From: Streptomyces tanashiensis
GTDB lineage: Bacteria > Actinomycetota > Actinomycetes > Streptomycetales > Streptomycetaceae
DNA length: 64,000 bases
Assembly: GCF_014648895.1 (NCBI RefSeq)
Contig: NZ_BMRZ01000002.1
Span: 186,001 to 250,000, forward strand
Reading direction: 5' to 3'
The notes under the pieces were generated by a model. The model was not told where the DNA came from. It worked only from the letters and a program-made list of their open reading frames with translations, and did not search any database. This document shows, one piece after another, positions 51,994 through 59,244 of this stretch (its first letter is position 1; each line of letters begins with the position of its first letter). Position numbers and translations under genes: made by a program.

Positions 51994-53307
51994 CTAGCCG
52001 TTGACGACCTTGTCGTAGCGCAGGGCGACGTAGCCGGAGGCGGCGTGGCCCGCGATGCGGCCGTCGGTGCCGCCGTTGAGATAGTCCTGGCCGCGCATCA
52101 TGTCGTCGTTCGGGTTGGACTCGTGGATGTACGAGAACTTTCCGGCGGCCTTGTCGACCCAGCGCTCGAAGAGCACCACGTGGCCGTCCTGGGTGTTCAG
52201 CGCGTCGCCGGGCTGGAGATCGGACTTGGAGATGGTGGCGCTGACGCCCGGAAGGCTGGCGGTGGTGTAGCTGCTGTTGGCGTGCCAGGCCATGGAGATG
52301 AAGCCGGAGCAGTCGGTGCGGTAGGTGTGGTCGCCGTCGGGGTCGCCGGCGTACGCGCTCTGGCTGTAGGGGATGTCGCGGTTCAGCCAGTTCACGGCAC
52401 GGCTCAGGACCTCGCTGCGGGCGATCTGCCCGCCCCGGGTGGAGGGGGTGGGCGTGGGAGGCGTCGGCGGCTGGTACGTGCAGTCGTTGGCGAAGGCGGA
52501 CAGGAGGGTCTGGGTCCAGCCGCTCGCGTCGACCGGGTCGTCGGAGTGGTAGGCGATGTCGTCGCCCTTGCCGTCGGTGGGGTCCGCGTCGTGGTACCAG
52601 TACAGACCGCCGTTCGTGCGGCCGTAGTAGAGGCCGCCGCCGGGCGAGACCAGACTGTCGACCGCCGACCAGCCGGAGCTCTTGAGGTCCGAACGCTCCC
52701 AGTCGCCGACGCCGTTGATCTGGTAGGAGAGCAGCCTGCCGTCGCTCGTGGTGGCCACGAGGACGTCGTCGCCCGCCGCCGCGAGGGTCTTGAGGACGAA
52801 GCCCTCGTCGATCACGACGTGCTTGGCGATGTGTGCCGGTCCGGAGGGCTTGGCCTGGGAGACGTTGTAGCGGTGGAGCTGGCCGGCGACCGTGCCGTAG
52901 AGGTGGCCGGCGCCGTCGTAGGTCATCTTGTCGAAGGTCCAGCCGCTGTCCCAGATCTTGGTGACTCCGGCCAGGGCGAGGGCGTTGTCGTTGGTCTGGA
53001 CGTCGACGCGGTACAGCTCGCCGGCCGTCGACGTCACGAGGACCGTGTTGAAGTTGAGGGTGGCCATCGCCTTGGGTGTGAACCCGAGGTCAGGGCCGAT
53101 CAGCGTCTTGACCCGGTCGCCGGTGTTGGGGGATATCGCCGTGTAGGTGAGGCGTCCGTCGGCGAGGGTGCCGTAGACGGAGACGTTGCCGCCGCAGATG
53201 GCCGCGGCCTGGGCCGGCGTCGCCGAGCCGAGGGTGGCCAGGCCCAGGGACGAGGCGGCCAGGGCGAAGCCGGCGGCGAGACGGAGTGCGCGGGACGACG
53301 AGAGCAT
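51994..53307 (-). CDS. Secreted lectin-like protein with NlpC/P60-type C-terminal hydrolase
   Basis: A 437-aa secreted protein. Signal peptide about 1-35 (AxA cleavage near AQAAA). Residues about 38-280 form a tachylectin-2-like beta-propeller (AICGGNVSVYGTLADGRLTY; GWTFDKMTYDGAGHLYGTVA; GWSAVDSLVSPGGGLYYGRT). After a Pro/Thr linker, residues 291-437 look NlpC/P60- or amidase-like: catalytic C333 (YRTDCSGFISMAWH) and His376 (QPGDALNTQDGHVVLFERW). It likely binds glycans and cuts wall peptide. It shares its N-terminal module with the next gene. Confidence 0.8.
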   Translation of the reverse strand: MLSSSRALRLAAGFALAASSLGLATLGSATPAQAAAICGGNVSVYGTLADGRLTYTAISPNTGDRVKTLIGPDLGFTPKAMATLNFNTVLVTSTAGELYRVDVQTNDNALALAGVTKIWDSGWTFDKMTYDGAGHLYGTVAGQLHRYNVSQAKPSGPAHIAKHVVIDEGFVLKTLAAAGDDVLVATTSDGRLLSYQINGVGDWERSDLKSSGWSAVDSLVSPGGGLYYGRTNGGLYWYHDADPTDGKGDDIAYHSDDPVDASGWTQTLLSAFANDCTYQPPTPPTPTPSTRGGQIARSEVLSRAVNWLNRDIPYSQSAYAGDPDGDHTYRTDCSGFISMAWHANSSYTTASLPGVSATISKSDLQPGDALNTQDGHVVLFERWVDKAAGKFSYIHESNPNDDMMRGQDYLNGGTDGRIAGHAASGYVALRYDKVVNG

Positions 53308-53416: not shown

Positions 53417-54622
53417 TCAGTACCAGTTGTTGTTCAGGAAGTGGTTCCAGGCGGCGCAGGGCGTGCCGTACCGGCCGTCGATGTAGGAGAGTCCCCACTT
53501 GATCTGTGTGAGGGGGTTGGTGCGCCAGTCGTCGCCGAAGGCGTCCATCTTCGAGCCGGGCAGGGCCTGGGGGATGCCGTAGGCGGAGGAACTCGGGTTG
53601 TCGGCCCAGTAGCGCCAGCCGCTCTCCCTGGTCCACAGCTGGTCCAGGCAGTTCCACTGAGTGGTGCTGTTCCAGACTCCGCCGTCGTACGTGTTCATCA
53701 GATCGCGTCCGGCCGCCTTCACCGCGGGGATTTCGGTGCCGTCGAGCGGGTCGGAGCTGGTGGTGCAGCTGAACGTCCCCGGCTGGGCGGAGAGCAGCCC
53801 TTGCGTCCAGCCGCCGGTGTTGACAGGCGTGTCGTTGTGGTACGCGATGTCGGTGCCGGATCCGTCGGCCGGGTCGGCGTCCTTGTACCAGTACATGGCG
53901 CCCGTGGTGGCGATCCGACCGTAGTAGAGGCCACCGCCCGGCGACACGACCTGATCGAAGGCGGACCAGCCCGAGGTCTTGAGGTCGTCCCGCTTCCAGC
54001 CGCCGTCGCTGTCGATCTTGTAGGAGTAGAGCGCACCGGCCGCGGTGGTGGCGAGCAGGCGGTCGTCTCCGGCGGCGGTGAGGGTCTTCAGGACGAAGCC
54101 GCCGCCGATCTCCTTGCGCTGGCCGATGTGCGCCGAGCCGGTCGGCTTGGGCTGGGAGACCAGGTACTGGATGAGGAGGCCCCCGGCCGTGCCGTAGAGA
54201 TGGCCGTGTCCGTCGTACGTGAGCTTGTCGTGGGTCCAGCCGCTGTCGAAGAGCTTGACGGGCGGGCGCTCCAGGACGAGGGACGTGTTGTTGGTGAGCA
54301 CGTCGAGGCGGTACAGCGCGCCGGTGGTCGACGTGACGAGGATGGTGTTGAAGTTGAGGGTGGCCATCGCCTTGGGCTCGAAGCCCAGGTCCGCCCCGAT
54401 CACCACCTTCTTCAACTCGCCGGTGGCGGGCGTGATCGTGCTGAAGGTGAGGCGGCCGTCGGGGAGGATGCCGTAGATCGAGGCGGTTCCGTTGCAGGTG
54501 GTCGCGGCCTGTGCCACGGGAGCGGCGCCCACGGTCGCGGCGGTGAGGAGTCCGGCCCCGAGGGCACCGGACAGGGCCGCGATCGTGGTCTTGCGGGCAG
54601 CCTGGCGGAGGGTCGTCGTCAC
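53417..54622 (-). CDS. Secreted lectin-like protein with lysozyme/transglycosylase-type C-terminus
   Basis: A 401-aa secreted paralogue. Signal peptide about 1-40. Residues 41-280 match the neighbour's beta-propeller blade for blade (ATTCNGTASIYGILPDGRLT; GWTHDKLTYDGHGHLYGTAG; GWSAFDQVVSPGGGLYYGRI). Residues 305-401 differ: LDQLWTRESGWRYWADNPSS, AYGIPQALPGSKM and YGTPCAAWNHFLNNNWY are the signature of resuscitation/transglycosylase-like lysozyme folds, with likely catalytic E333. It is probably a wall-lytic enzyme targeted by the lectin part. Confidence 0.85.
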   Translation of the reverse strand: MTTTLRQAARKTTIAALSGALGAGLLTAATVGAAPVAQAATTCNGTASIYGILPDGRLTFSTITPATGELKKVVIGADLGFEPKAMATLNFNTILVTSTTGALYRLDVLTNNTSLVLERPPVKLFDSGWTHDKLTYDGHGHLYGTAGGLLIQYLVSQPKPTGSAHIGQRKEIGGGFVLKTLTAAGDDRLLATTAAGALYSYKIDSDGGWKRDDLKTSGWSAFDQVVSPGGGLYYGRIATTGAMYWYKDADPADGSGTDIAYHNDTPVNTGGWTQGLLSAQPGTFSCTTSSDPLDGTEIPAVKAAGRDLMNTYDGGVWNSTTQWNCLDQLWTRESGWRYWADNPSSSAYGIPQALPGSKMDAFGDDWRTNPLTQIKWGLSYIDGRYGTPCAAWNHFLNNNWY

Positions 54623-54660
54623 TGTGTTCCTTCTGGAGATGTCCGCGTGCGGAGGCGGGA

Positions 54661-54739
54661 ACAGGTACGGGCACGGGCACGGGCACGGGAGCAGGTATGG
54701 GCACGGGCACGGGTGCGGGAGCAGGTACGGGTACGGAAG
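54661..54739. repeat. GGGCAC-type short tandem repeat
   Basis: Runs of GGGCAC/GGGTAC and a longer repeat containing GGGAGCAGGTA recur through this stretch, between the lectin/lysozyme gene start (54622) and the 91-aa gene stop (54782). It lies in the presumed upstream region of the lectin gene. Confidence 0.75.
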
Positions 54740-54781: not shown

Positions 54782-55057
54782 TCAGCGGCGGGGTGCGGCT
54801 GCGCTGTAGCCGTGGACTCGTAGAGCGGCGCGGGCGCCGTCGAGAATGGCGCGGGCCTGGTCGAGGGCTGCCGCTTCCGAGGCGGCGCGCAGGAAGAGAT
54901 AGATGTCCACGCCGTCGTCAGAGGCTGTGGCGCGGACGTGCTCGAGTCCGTTTCCCGTGTCCGAGTGGGCCCAGATGAGGTCGGAGAGGAGTGCGAGCAC
55001 GGTGGGGAAGCCGGGGCCGTGGCGCGGCCCTTCAAGGGACGCCTGGATGACGCGCAC
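54782..55057 (-). CDS. Small acidic protein coupled to the repeat peptide
   Basis: A 91-aa protein from GTG 55057 (VRVIQASLEGPRHGPGFPTV, LALLSDLIWAHSDTGNGLEH, VRATASDDGVDIYLFLRAAS, AILDGARAALRVHGYSAAAP). GTG lies 5 nt after the peptide gene's stop and is preceded by GAGGAGG, so re-initiation is likely. The second half has an amphipathic helix. No family is recognised. It may act on, or belong with, the peptide upstream. Confidence 0.6.
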   Translation of the reverse strand: MRVIQASLEGPRHGPGFPTVLALLSDLIWAHSDTGNGLEHVRATASDDGVDIYLFLRAASEAAALDQARAILDGARAALRVHGYSAAAPRR

Positions 55058-55062
55058 CCTCC

Positions 55063-55329
55063 TCAGTCCCAGTTGATGCTGCCGTCGGAGGACTTCGGTG
55101 CCGTGTCCCAACTGATGCTGCCGTCCGAGGACTTCGGCGCCGTGTCCCAACTGATGCTGCCGTCAGAGGCGCTGACGCGGTGTCGGGCGTGGTCTCCCGC
55201 GGAGGCGCCGGCCAGCGTGGAGGCGGAGACGGCGCCGATGCCGGCAACGGCGCAGAGGACGGCGGTCGCGGCGAGGGCGGCCGAACGGGCGGTGCGGGCC
55301 GAGTGGGCGGTGCGGACGGTGCGGAACAT
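55063..55329 (-). CDS. Secreted peptide precursor with three SDGSISWD repeats
   Basis: An 88-aa protein starting at ATG 55329 (AGGGGGA upstream). Basic N-terminus and hydrophobic core (SAALAATAVLCAVAGIGAVS) give a signal peptide of about 37-45 residues. The rest is three tandem units: SDGSISWDTAPKS, SDGSISWDTAPKS, SDGSINWD. No Cys, no known modification motif and no lantibiotic or graspetide enzyme nearby. The product may be a processed small peptide, a signal or a wall-binding peptide; this is inference. Downstream is the 91-aa gene, upstream a divergent LuxR-type regulator. Confidence 0.75.
   Translation of the reverse strand: MFRTVRTAHSARTARSAALAATAVLCAVAGIGAVSASTLAGASAGDHARHRVSASDGSISWDTAPKSSDGSISWDTAPKSSDGSINWD
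55067..55168. repeat. 39-bp tandem repeat inside the peptide gene
   Basis: Units begin at 55067, 55106 and 55145, a period of exactly 39 bp (13 codons), and differ by a few synonymous-type changes. The third is partial. They code for the SDGSISWDTAPKS repeats. There are no spacers between units. Confidence 0.85.
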
Positions 55330-55498
55330 GGGAATCCCCCTGGTCGATGGTCGGGAAGCGCTGCGTTCGGTGCGGTGTACCGCGCTACGTGCTGTTCCGG
55401 GCCGTCCTCGCGGCTCTGGCCCGGATCGGGGACTACCGCCCCGCCGTTCCGGTGTTCACAATGCTGCTGTCCCCGTCACACGTGGGGAAGGAGTTGCG

Positions 55499-55536
55499 TC
55501 TGTCACCAAGTGGTCTGGCACCTTGGTGACAGACCA
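55499..55536. promoter_or_regulatory. Nested palindrome upstream of the LuxR-type regulator
   Basis: TCTGTCACCAAG (55499-55510) pairs perfectly with CTTGGTGACAGA (55522-55533), 11 nt between. A second pair, TGGTCTG (55511-55517) and CAGACCA (55530-55536), overlaps it. This is a dense operator-like element in the 269-bp space between the peptide gene and the regulator gene. Confidence 0.65.
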
Positions 55537-55598
55537 CGTCTACGATCGCGGGCAGGCACGCTCGTGGGGCGGCCGGAGCACAGCTGGGGGGCTGGGGC

Positions 55599-56585
55599 AT
55601 GCTGCAGGCAATGGGACTCGGGGCCGCTGTGGAAGCCGTCTACCGGGGGATGCTGGCCGACCCCTCGGAGGGGATCGCCGAACTCAGCACGCGCCTCGGT
55701 CTCGCACAGACGCAGGTCCGCGAGAGCCTGGACCAGCTCGTCGACCTCGGTCTGCTCAGGCCGTCACGGGACAGTCCCGGTGCGCTCCGGGCGGTACGGC
55801 CGGAACTGGGCCTGGAGGTGCTCCTGCGCCGCCAGGAGACAGAAGTGGCCCGACAGCAGAAGGAGTTGGCGCAGAGCAGGGCCGCCGCGGCACAGGTCGT
55901 CTCCGAGTTCGCCGAGCTGCGTCCGAACACCGAGGTCGACGGCGCCGAGCGGCTCGTGGGCATGGACGCCATCCAGAACCGGCTGGAAGAGCTCGCCCAC
56001 GGACTGGCCCGGGAGTGCCTGGCGATCCTGCCGGGCGGCGCGCTGTCGGAAGCCAGCATGGAGGCGTCGCGCCCGCTGGACCGGAGGGCGCTCGCCCGCG
56101 GCATCGAGATGTGCTCGGTGTACCAGGACAGTGCCCGCAACGATCCGGCGACGCTGGCCTACGCCCGGTGGCTGACCGAGCAGGGCGGCCAGGTGCGCAC
56201 CAGCCCGCTGCTTCCTCCGCGTCTGCTGGTGTTCGACCGCACGGTCGCGGTCGTGCCCATCGACCCCGACAACTCCCGTACGGGCGCCCTGTGCACGAGC
56301 GCGCCCGGCATCGTCGCCTCCTTGGTCACCTTGTTCGAGCAGACGTGGGAGGCCGCCGTCCCCCTCGGAGCGGACCGCCCCCGCGCCACCGACACGGGGC
56401 CCACCGGGCCCGAACTCGAACTGTTGAGACTCCTGGCCTCGGGCATGACCGACGAGGCGGCGAGCAAACGCCTCGGGGTGTCGCTACGCACCGTGAGACG
56501 GCAGATGGCCGCGCTGATGGAACGCCTCCACGCCACCAGCCGCTTCGAGGCGGGCCTCAAGGCGGCACGCGAAGGTTGGCTCTGA
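55599..56585 (+). CDS. TrmB-like/LuxR-type transcriptional regulator
   Basis: A 328-aa regulator. The N-terminus is a TrmB-like winged helix (MLADPSEGIAELSTRLGLAQ, then QVRESLDQLVDLGLLRP) and a coiled-coil stretch (EVARQQKELAQSRAAAAQVV). The middle resembles a TrmB sensor/PLD-like fold. The C-terminus is a LuxR/GerE helix-turn-helix (ELELLRLLASGMTDEAASKR, then LGVSLRTVRRQMAALMERLH). No receiver domain, so it is not a normal response regulator. It sits opposite the repeat-peptide gene behind a palindromic site. ATG 55599 or 55611 may be used. Confidence 0.8.
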   Translation: MLQAMGLGAAVEAVYRGMLADPSEGIAELSTRLGLAQTQVRESLDQLVDLGLLRPSRDSPGALRAVRPELGLEVLLRRQETEVARQQKELAQSRAAAAQVVSEFAELRPNTEVDGAERLVGMDAIQNRLEELAHGLARECLAILPGGALSEASMEASRPLDRRALARGIEMCSVYQDSARNDPATLAYARWLTEQGGQVRTSPLLPPRLLVFDRTVAVVPIDPDNSRTGALCTSAPGIVASLVTLFEQTWEAAVPLGADRPRATDTGPTGPELELLRLLASGMTDEAASKRLGVSLRTVRRQMAALMERLHATSRFEAGLKAAREGWL

Positions 56586-57051: not shown

Positions 57052-59244
57052 CTACCGTACGGGCTCCACGGGTGGCCGACGGCCCACGTGGGCCAGGACG
57101 AGCACGGTGTCGTCGGTCGGCGCGTCCGGCAGAAGTCCGGACAGGACGGTGTCCGCTGCCTCCTCCAGCGCCTCGGGCTCCCCCGAGGTCTCCGTCAGGG
57201 CGGCCAGTCGGTCACAGAGCGCCCGCACACCCTCGTCGATGTCCTGATCGCGGGTCTCGACGAGCCCGTCGGTGTAGAGGGCGAGCAGATCCCCCTCGTG
57301 GAGTGCGATCTCGGTCGTGCCGAAGGGGAGGCCGCCGACGCCGAGGGGCACACCAAGCACGTCGTCGACCACCAGCACGGTGCCGTCGGGACGGCGGACG
57401 AGCGGCGGCGGATGCCCCGCGTTGGCGACGAGTGCGCGGCCGGTCCCGGGGTCGTACCGGATGTAGAGGCAGGTCGCGAGCTCGATGCCCGCCTCCTGGG
57501 CGCAGGCGTCGAGTTCGGCCATGAGGTCGCCGGGGTCGAGATTCTGTCGGGCCAGCGCCTTGGCGGTGATGCGCAGCCGGCCCATCGCCGCGGCGGCCGG
57601 TACGCCGTGCCCCATGACGTCGCCGACGACCAGGGCGATCCGGCCGCCGGGCAGTTCGGTCACGTCGTACCAGTCGCCGCCGACCTCCGTGACATGGCTG
57701 CCGGGAAGGTAGCGGTGGGCGATGCGCAGGGTGGGTCCGGTGGCGAGAGCGGTGGGGAGCAGGGCGCGCTGAAGGGTGAGCGCGATGTCCTGGACGCGGC
57801 TGTAGAGGCGGGCGTTGTCGAGGCAGAGGGCGGCTCGGGAGGCGAGTTCGGCGGCCAGGCTGAGGTCCTGATCGGAGAAGGCGGGGCGGGCGGCCGAGCG
57901 CCCGAACATGACGATCCCCTGGACCGTGCCGCGGGCGATGAGCGGGGCGATGAGGAGACAGGTCAGTCCGCTGTCGATGAGCAGCCGGGCGCGGGCCTGG
58001 TGGATGACGGTCCGGGTCACGAAGTCGTCGTCGACCGGGACGCAGATGGGCCGGCCCGTGCGCAGGGTCGCGTGGATGGTGGAGTCCGGCGGGTACGTCA
58101 CGTGTGTGAGACCGCTGACGAGTTCGGGCGCGGGCGGGGGCAGCGTGGTGCCGGAGGCGATCCGGCGGGTCCTGAGCGGGCTCTCGGGTACAAAGACCTC
58201 CGGCTCGTCCATCCAGTCGACCACCTCCACGGCTGCGGCGTCACAGAACTCGGGGACGACCGTGTCGACCAGTTCGCGCGCGGTGACCTCGACGTCGAGG
58301 GTGGTGCCGATGCGGGAGGCCGCGCGGTGCAGCAGATCGAGCCGTTGCCGGCCGGCGGCGGCCTCGACCAGGGCCTGCTCACGGTCGGTGACGTCCACGA
58401 GCAGCCCGCCGACACCGGGTCGTGTGCCGACGGCCCGGCTGAGCGGGAAGAGGCTCACGGAACGGATCTGGTCCCGGTCGGGGTGGCCCGGGGTGCGCAG
58501 GCCGACGAGCGCGCTGATGACGGGCCGCCCCTCGTCGGCGACGGCCCGCAGCAGGCCGGAGTAGGCGCCGCCGTCCGACGTGATCATGATGTCTTCCATA
58601 CGGCGCCCGATGTGGTCCTCGATGGGGACGCCGTCCATGTCGGCGAGGGCCTGGTTGAGGTGGACGTACCGCAGGTCCTCGTCCAGCATGACGAGTCCGA
58701 TCGGACACGTCTCGAACAGCGCGTCCAGGAAGGCGAGGTTGCTCTTGACCCGGTCGAGCTCTTCGCTCCTGCTGGCCAGGCCGACGACGACGGACCGCCC
58801 GGCGGCCCCCGTCACCGGGAAGACCCGGAGGCCGCAGTCGAACACGGCGCCGTCCCGGTGCCTCGCCGTCATTCTTACCCGCCAGTAGCCGAGAGTCAGG
58901 CCCCGCTCGACGAGCAGCTCAGCGGAATCGACCCCGTCGGCTCCTGCTCGGGGGAACAGAACGGCCGCCGACCGGCCGATCGCGTCCGCCGCCTCGTACC
59001 CGAAGAGGTCCTGCGCACCGGGCCCCCAGTAATGGATCCGGCCCTTCTCGTCCAGGCCGAGCACGGCCACGGGCACATGCTCCAGCAGGGTCCCCGGCTC
59101 CGACCACACCGGCCCGGGAGCCGCCTCCTCCCCCGACCGCCTGGATGGCACGTAGCCCCCTTCGCGCGTGCCCGCCGGCACGCCAGGTGACTCGGAAGTG
59201 ACTTTCAGGGCAATTCTGCCCGCAGTCGCCGGATCGGACATCAC
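57052..59244 (-). CDS. PAS-PAS-GAF-SpoIIE (PP2C-type) serine phosphatase
   Basis: A 730-aa protein. Two PAS domains (HVPVAVLGLDEKGRIHYWGP; LFETCPIGLVMLDEDLRYVH), a GAF domain (residues about 320-470, LVDTVVPEFCDAAAVEVVDW), then a SpoIIE phosphatase (LTLQRALLPTALATGPTLRI; GGDWYDV; VVGDVMGHGVPAAAAMGRLR; LALYTDGLVETRDQDIDEGV). The metal-binding Asp residues are present. Such proteins dephosphorylate anti-sigma factor antagonists in Streptomyces signalling. GTG 59244 or ATG 59241 is the start. No kinase domain was seen. Confidence 0.92.
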   Translation of the reverse strand: MMSDPATAGRIALKVTSESPGVPAGTREGGYVPSRRSGEEAAPGPVWSEPGTLLEHVPVAVLGLDEKGRIHYWGPGAQDLFGYEAADAIGRSAAVLFPRAGADGVDSAELLVERGLTLGYWRVRMTARHRDGAVFDCGLRVFPVTGAAGRSVVVGLASRSEELDRVKSNLAFLDALFETCPIGLVMLDEDLRYVHLNQALADMDGVPIEDHIGRRMEDIMITSDGGAYSGLLRAVADEGRPVISALVGLRTPGHPDRDQIRSVSLFPLSRAVGTRPGVGGLLVDVTDREQALVEAAAGRQRLDLLHRAASRIGTTLDVEVTARELVDTVVPEFCDAAAVEVVDWMDEPEVFVPESPLRTRRIASGTTLPPPAPELVSGLTHVTYPPDSTIHATLRTGRPICVPVDDDFVTRTVIHQARARLLIDSGLTCLLIAPLIARGTVQGIVMFGRSAARPAFSDQDLSLAAELASRAALCLDNARLYSRVQDIALTLQRALLPTALATGPTLRIAHRYLPGSHVTEVGGDWYDVTELPGGRIALVVGDVMGHGVPAAAAMGRLRITAKALARQNLDPGDLMAELDACAQEAGIELATCLYIRYDPGTGRALVANAGHPPPLVRRPDGTVLVVDDVLGVPLGVGGLPFGTTEIALHEGDLLALYTDGLVETRDQDIDEGVRALCDRLAALTETSGEPEALEEAADTVLSGLLPDAPTDDTVLVLAHVGRRPPVEPVR

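Follow-up and report, generated by a model that had tools for sequence, protein, structure and literature searches.

In a 64,000-nucleotide stretch of the Streptomyces tanashiensis genome (the window, i.e. the whole stretch analysed), a gene for a small export-type precursor with repeated tryptophan cores, a gene for a 91-aa protein and a divergent gene for a TrmB/LuxR-type regulator were found side by side, and on the sequence evidence they belong to a real, widespread and, as far as searched, apparently undescribed gene family. No such system was found in titles or abstract openings of the open-licence papers that the literature searches listed. A sequence-only reading of this DNA had proposed a secreted peptide family, so far undescribed, that has its own regulator, and this proposal is supported as far as sequence allows, with no family match above cut-off for the peptide or the small protein. 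Of the two layouts considered in that reading, a peptide signal is better supported than a multi-core modified precursor, since no maturation enzyme recurs among the neighbours, while we infer the signal role itself. It appears fairly probable that these cassettes encode autoregulated peptide pheromones in multiple channels, which would be read inside the cell by the TrmB/LuxR protein as a one-component regulator.

The peptide gene, its small partner and the facing regulator

The 88-aa Trp-peptide precursor is encoded on the minus strand at 55063–55329 by an ORF that is present as claimed before, with a third-codon GC of 0.90, and the end of an upstream GGGGGA stretch lies five bases from its ATG. 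Its N terminus is basic and then hydrophobic, the signal peptide being judged by hydropathy only. A tandem repeat at 55066–55169 (period 39, 2.7 copies, 92% matches, score 173) is translated on the minus strand into an array (55066–55167) that reads SDGSISWDTAPKS, SDGSISWDTAPKS and SDGSINWD, and three S-I-S/N-W-D cores were counted from the translation at 55144–55158, 55105–55119 and 55066–55080, the protein ending one residue past the last Trp. Three 13-residue units had been described; the two full units stand, but the third consists of only eight residues (SDGSINWD), so the description was overstated by five residues.

The 88-aa peptide matched no Pfam or NCBIfam family above cut-off; it is single-copy in its own genome (next match at E 0.6), and a plasmid search with it gave four matches only at E 2–7. 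At E 0.01, 32 of 199 genomes matched, own genome counted. Three near relatives detected with the peptide share the trio of genes and its arrangement, with four, two and two SINWD copies, respectively, which argues for an arrangement beyond chance; all three homologues, when inspected, adjoin the regulator, and a repeat gene standing without it was not seen. The motif was found in three of five matches inspected (L009–L013), and another match, L014, is identical with locus L128; the remaining 26, assessed only collectively, were taken for chance matches to signal-like sequence rich in Ala and set aside. In a relative from S. hydrogenans (L213), SISWD occurs at least five times, and the array contains undetermined bases.

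The 91-aa protein is encoded behind the peptide gene on the minus strand (54782–55057) and begins with a GTG at 55057. The stop codon of the peptide and this start are spaced by exactly five nucleotides, namely GGAGG (TGA-GGAGG-GTG), so translational coupling of the 91-aa protein to the 88-aa peptide is plausible. A ferredoxin-like fold was confidently predicted for it (pLDDT 91.2), and the fold search against the PDB yielded nothing at E 0.001. The protein matched no Pfam or NCBIfam family above cut-off, and none was recurrent among the members; an identity as Tail_completion_gp17 was rejected, this family scoring 17.3 bits versus a cut-off of 24.5 and matching one of 69 members. In an alignment of 69 rows (A3, the window protein plus 68 of 70 small proteins), His 40 is invariant and Glu 39 nearly invariant. 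The small protein was found at 126 of the 148 distinct regulator loci surveyed below, and among the 83 loci with both peptide and small protein its gene follows that of the peptide in 57, whereas in 26 it is placed between those of the peptide and the regulator. At L149–L151, no signal-like peptide is present and the small protein has a long in-frame N-terminal extension; L152, L157 and L160–L162 resemble these loci, as judged on shorter views.

The 328-aa regulator (55599–56585, plus strand) faces the peptide and the small protein, and the intervening 269 bases contain nested inverted repeats. Its domain borders, placed by us from a predicted model (pLDDT 84.4, pTM 0.60), comprise a TrmB winged HTH at about 1–66, a PLD-like domain at about 110–256 and a LuxR-type HTH at about 268–328. 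In Pfam, GerE at the C end (27.8 bits, cut-off 23.5) and HTH_24 scored above their cut-offs, and TrmB was just below its own (25.4 versus 25.6 bits). A receiver-less LuxR-type regulator had been reported here and this is borne out, with GerE at the C end and no receiver domain among the 25 families listed; neither was a TPR domain among the family and fold matches listed. In the fold search, TrmBL2 or TrmB took the first nine places, ahead of phospholipase-D folds, with TrmBL2 5bpd at the top (E 3.9e-12, TM-scores 0.34/0.42), and the 35 solved relatives found by sequence all match the C-terminal part through their LuxR-type HTHs. As for the catalytic HKD of phospholipase D, visual inspection of the conserved block LPPRML.FDR (27 rows) showed no HxK. 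The protein resembles TrmB and TrmBL2 in a winged HTH joined to a PLD-like domain that by eye lacks the catalytic HKD, but differs from them in the added C-terminal LuxR-type HTH and the linked secreted-type peptide. Beyond the regulator lie a FomD-like gene, at 36.9 bits versus a cut-off of 320, and a large gene (57052–59244, minus strand) whose product may, from its look, be a phosphatase of PAS/GAF/SpoIIE type.

Between the peptide and regulator genes, a putative operator region of nested inverted repeats spans 55498–55537. The nested palindrome noted earlier is there, with perfect 13+13 arms (55498–55510/55522–55534) and a second pair (55510–55522/55525–55537) at 92%, and it is kept in near relatives. 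Its core palindrome TGGCACCTTGGTGACA (55516–55531) has, in degenerate form, two exact sites in the genome. A single occurrence of the narrow pattern TGKCACCWWGGTGMCA with at most one mismatch was found in the 9.0-Mb genome, the same number as for its reversed control, and the wider 16-bp pattern TGNCASCWWGSTGNCA occurred at two exact sites versus none for the reversed control. Both exact sites lie in cassettes, i.e. before the window regulator and before its closest paralogue, whose site carries a symmetric swap of C and G (TGACAGCTTGCTGCCA). With at most one mismatch, TGNCASCWWGSTGNCA was found at 9 places genome-wide versus 18 for the reversed control, so inexact sites are background. As the operator pattern was derived from these loci, its presence there is no test, but its absence elsewhere is. 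With at most one mismatch it occurred in 52 of 148 intergenic stretches versus 5 of 294 control stretches, in 40 of 135 outside the SINWD clade of the window, and by clade in 37 of 51 for WD, 2 of 16 for WG, 0 of 16 for WQ and 0 of 5 for WE. This distribution fits a putative local autoregulation with clade-specific operators.

A regulator-guided family survey and the tryptophan core

Within the own genome, the paralogue nearest to the regulator (52%) likewise faces a 55-aa secreted-type peptide ending NDLSWG and a small-protein homologue, and because this paralogue has the same cassette, the regulator was taken as search bait. At E 1e-85, 63 of 392 genus genomes matched, own genome counted; stretches around 93 regulators were examined, 14 of them belonging to own-genome paralogues, and from a genome-collection search the best 80 of 402 regulator relatives were taken. 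Together with the window, 174 loci yielded 158 distinct regulators, and 148 after ten distant own-genome paralogues were removed. The query (A1) had 27 rows from 52 carriers, and the regulator alignment (A2) consisted of the window regulator and 75 of the 80 named ones.

A strict, divergently encoded Trp peptide was found at 92 of the 148 distinct regulators, a set that leans to peptide carriers because the 27-row query was picked from carriers. Inspection by eye added three divergent peptides missed by the rule, six whose motif precedes the C end and, as the loosest class, 13 elsewhere in the locus, which brings the count to 114 of 148 when these 22 looser cases are included; at the other 34, no Trp peptide was found by rule or by eye. 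Three Trp-ended ORFs were removed as spurious (L143, the first candidate at L158, and L185). In the set retrieved with the window regulator and own-genome paralogues, a peptide was present at 49 of 83 after removal of two spurious ones. The 1-kb divergent stretches of these 83 regulators contained 57 signal-like ORFs by a simple rule, of which 51, the spurious L143 and L185 included, end in Trp plus 0–2 residues. In the comparison stretches, Trp-ended ORFs made up 2/12, 4/22, 4/42, 3/10, 0/14, 2/14 and 6/31 of the signal-like ones, or 21/145 in total, the value 2/14 of the window probably counting the peptide itself.

The layout recurs across genera, and the peptide, the small protein and the regulator stay together. 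Strict peptides were present in 55 of the 80 named loci, namely in Streptomyces (44/60), Kitasatospora (6/9), Streptacidiphilus (2/3), Catenulispora (2/2) and Actinospica (1/2), and in none of the single loci of Streptantibioticus, Kineosporia, Actinomadura and Actinocrinis; the Streptantibioticus locus (L260) has a GIGWD peptide elsewhere in the locus. A regulator profile at E 1e-60 matched 163 of 245 genomes of the order, with or without a peptide, at up to 8 matches per genome. In the phylum, 11 of 296 genomes matched at E 1e-50, eight being of the same genus (own counted), and one of the three from other genera has a peptide ending YDTGWD (L344). Among plasmids, 83 records matched the regulator at E 1e-20; in one plasmid record it is annotated as 'helix-turn-helix transcriptional regulator'.

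Further Trp peptides occur beside distant paralogues in the own genome, i.e. DTGWG in three copies (L203), DPGWH/S/N in four copies (L205) and LDTSWG, which is not C-terminal (L202). With the distant regulator of L203 as query, 10 of 150 genomes matched, and two look-alike peptides were found, one of them its own. Three other distant TrmB/LuxR paralogues (L206, L208 and L211) face, by eye, large genes for what are presumably secreted-type subtilisin-like (S8) proteases, and no Trp peptide faces these paralogues, as judged by eye from the translations. Peptides ending CAGCWS or CGACWE were seen at L264 (Actinospica), L275 (Catenulispora), L303, L309 and L310, in which the CxxC beside Trp is possibly a disulphide variant. 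At L287, two Trp-peptide genes, with one and two copies of TTAWE, lie at one regulator.

The core of the family is commonly x-I/M/L-G/N/S-W-D/G/Q/E and is often repeated two to five times; the 92 strict precursors have one copy in 35, two in 33, three in 18, four in 3 and five in 3. VIGWD (13) and SINWD (12) are the most frequent types, followed by GIGWD (8), TIGWD (5), DAGWQ (4) and numerous less frequent ones. In S. lavendulae CCM 3239, a relative whose genome is complete, VIGWD is present in five copies (L237). Directly behind Trp stands Asp in 51, Gly in 16, Gln in 16, Glu in 5 and another residue in 4, and two positions before Trp are Ile (46), Met (13), Thr (8), Ala (8), Leu (7), Phe (5) and others (5). 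As 87 of the 92 peptides stop one residue past Trp, the C end of the precursor mostly coincides with the ends of internal cores. At the third position behind the core, Pro was found in 57 of 90 internal copies, versus at most 16 of 90 at seven other positions. The mature peptide would accordingly be expected, from these alignments, to end at W-D/G/Q/E, with a putative [T/S]-A-P-like cut signal behind it.

A repeat number running from 1 to 5, as in wall proteins, together with the six loci where the motif stands before the C end, would suit a Trp segment that stays attached to a small surface protein as its structural or adhesive tail. Such a tail is quite improbable in our view, for the endings at Trp+1 (87/92) and the single-copy precursors (35/92) speak against it, and one would hardly expect it to have a regulator of its own whose operator is almost unique.

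Across 135 within-precursor copy pairs, the core had 55 synonymous versus 8 non-synonymous codon differences, the latter count being lowered by the picking of copies with at most two core mismatches, and the linker, i.e. the five codons behind the core, had 39 synonymous versus 97 non-synonymous ones. A conserved core with variable linkers, multiple cores and a short leader-like region are also features of a multi-core RiPP, in which the Trp cores would be modified by an unlinked or unrecognised enzyme to give an antibiotic or toxin, with the small protein, whose conserved Glu-His could suit such a part, as immunity factor or modification aid. The Sec-like N terminus argues against this product, which we judge very unlikely, and so do the neighbours: no maturation enzyme recurs among those listed, as stated for this locus before, and the linked modification enzyme by which RiPP loci are recognised was not found among them, radical-SAM, YcaO and lanthionine enzymes being absent from the neighbour families listed. 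The neighbour cluster that ranks second occurs in only 11 of 148 loci; the first one (cluster 0, 97 of 148 loci) was rejected as a count, small and secreted proteins having been mixed in it by chaining.

Pairing of the core with the regulator and with secreted neighbours

On the tree of the 92 regulators, the core residues other than Trp require 21, 16, 21 and 9 changes, compared with minima of 52, 37, 37 and 31 in 200 shuffles, which indicates that the peptide core follows the regulator clade, much of it by common descent. A sister-pair test was read on 45 independent pairs, 27 with the same core and 18 with different cores. In the core-different pairs, the sensor is more divergent relative to the HTHs (+0.024 versus −0.037, p 0.033, pairs less than 5% apart excluded), and three overlapping matched-distance bands gave p 0.007, 0.008 and 0.034 in what is a small test with bands chosen afterwards. 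Sensor positions 136, 169, 193 and 212 were the four top-ranking columns, with ranks uncorrected for column number.

On the peptide side, the 91-aa gene is followed by two secreted-type genes on the minus strand. The first (53417–54622) encodes a 401-aa protein with an aggregation-promoting-factor C-terminal domain (NCBIfam NF052397, 3.3e-36); its body is propeller/lectin-like by eye only, without a Pfam match, and the corresponding neighbours are 85–91% identical in ten relatives. The second (51994–53307) encodes a 437-aa Tachylectin protein (5.9e-13; NLPC_P60 at 0.031, below cut-off). Both are possible output genes of the cassette. The two form a tandem pair with differing C-terminal domains, and several close relatives likewise have a pair of 401 and 436 aa. 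A tandem array of CGGGCA-like units (54656–54736; period 30, also read as 6) lies between the small-protein and 401-aa genes.

Among 70 large genes that come next behind the peptide, FG-GAP_3 was matched by 17, CHAP by 8, RHS repeat by 6, Tachylectin by 4 and Transglycosylas by 2, and AggPromo_Cterm was found in 12 of the 70 neighbour genes. In the control set (A5), 69 of 74 genes on the other side, those surface and wall families were absent among the 25 of 90 families listed. No transporter, protease or permease was found in the conserved part of the cassette. The recurrence of secreted propeller, lectin, CHAP and transglycosylase genes on the peptide side, and their absence among the control families listed, would agree with a peptide acting as the secreted partner (inhibitor, anchor or bridging ligand) of a propeller/lectin or wall hydrolase, with the regulator sensing the envelope or a sugar, and TrmB relatives do sense sugars. 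Among 105 same-core pairs of regulators at least 70% identical, however, the secreted-side neighbour is non-homologous in 40, although these pairs are non-independent, no fewer than ten of the 40 have locus L223 in common and the gene calls are rough; and of 77 pairs at this regulator identity whose neighbours are homologous, 12 differ in core. The core thus tracks the regulator at least as well as it tracks the neighbour. With the sensor domain also shifting together with the core, we consider a partner role of this kind unlikely.

Proposed signalling route and known peptide systems

For the preferred reading, that of a peptide pheromone, we infer the following route, the direction of regulation and the output genes included. 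The 88-aa precursor would be exported from the cell, and extracellular proteases would cut after W-D, freeing several short peptides that end ...S-I-S/N-W-D. A freed peptide would then re-enter the cell, probably by an oligopeptide permease, and bind the PLD-like domain of the TrmB/LuxR regulator; to our knowledge, no peptide-receptor role is known for PLD-like domains. The regulator would bind the palindrome in the shared promoter and control the peptide operon, which would comprise the precursor, the 91-aa protein, perhaps as an intracellular modulator, and possibly the downstream secreted gene or genes. Several cassettes per genome, with differing cores and operators, would provide separate channels.

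Such a route is closest in outline to the RRNPP systems of Bacillota (Rap-Phr, PlcR-PapR, NprR-NprX and Rgg-SHP), which likewise have a small export-type precursor gene with the signal at its C end, an adjoining gene for a cytoplasmic regulator and many diversified peptide/regulator pairs. The adjoining small export-type propeptide gene by which RRNPP systems are recognised is present here, with export judged by hydropathy. The receptor is a TPR protein there, whereas it has a TrmB/PLD-like/LuxR build here, and the present precursors differ as well in their Trp core, which is often repeated within one precursor, and in their host phylum, Actinomycetota. The XIP and SHP peptides of streptococci are similar in being short C-terminal peptides sensed inside the cell, and XIP carries two Trp; their receptors are of Rgg type, and their precursors are unrelated to the Trp-peptide ones.

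Reviews on streptomycete and actinobacterial signals chiefly name gamma-butyrolactones, alongside cyclic or modified peptides (PMC10075063, PMC4748050, PMC13220807); signals of Actinomycetota are described there as typically enzyme-made small molecules (PMC10075063), and those of actinobacteria as cyclic or modified peptides plus gamma-butyrolactones (PMC4748050). For S. coelicolor, it is stated that BldK, an oligopeptide transporter, imports an extracellular peptide of 655 Da, and that its binding protein is poorly conserved between strains, which may use different peptides (PMC9640686). Uptake of a streptomycete extracellular peptide by an oligopeptide transporter, as described for BldK, is the feature that the proposed route shares with it. 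None of 15 computed core masses is 655, however, the nearest being 648 and 663, and a link of the Trp peptides to BldK is only a suggestion.

A broader claim, put forward tentatively and with less confidence than the pheromone reading itself, is that Actinomycetota, chiefly the Streptomyces order, may possess a new ribosomal peptide language, with Trp-ended peptides, PLD-fold TrmB/LuxR receptors, several insulated channels, and secreted lectins and wall hydrolases as output. The system bears on which signal peptides the oligopeptide transporters of Streptomyces import, a matter raised in PMC9640686, and if the claim is true, this family could include streptomycete peptide signals of open identity, for example the one that BldK takes up. 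Linear, encoded and diversified peptides, together with a receptor fold so far unlinked to peptides, would then offer predictable and synthesisable signals for many species.
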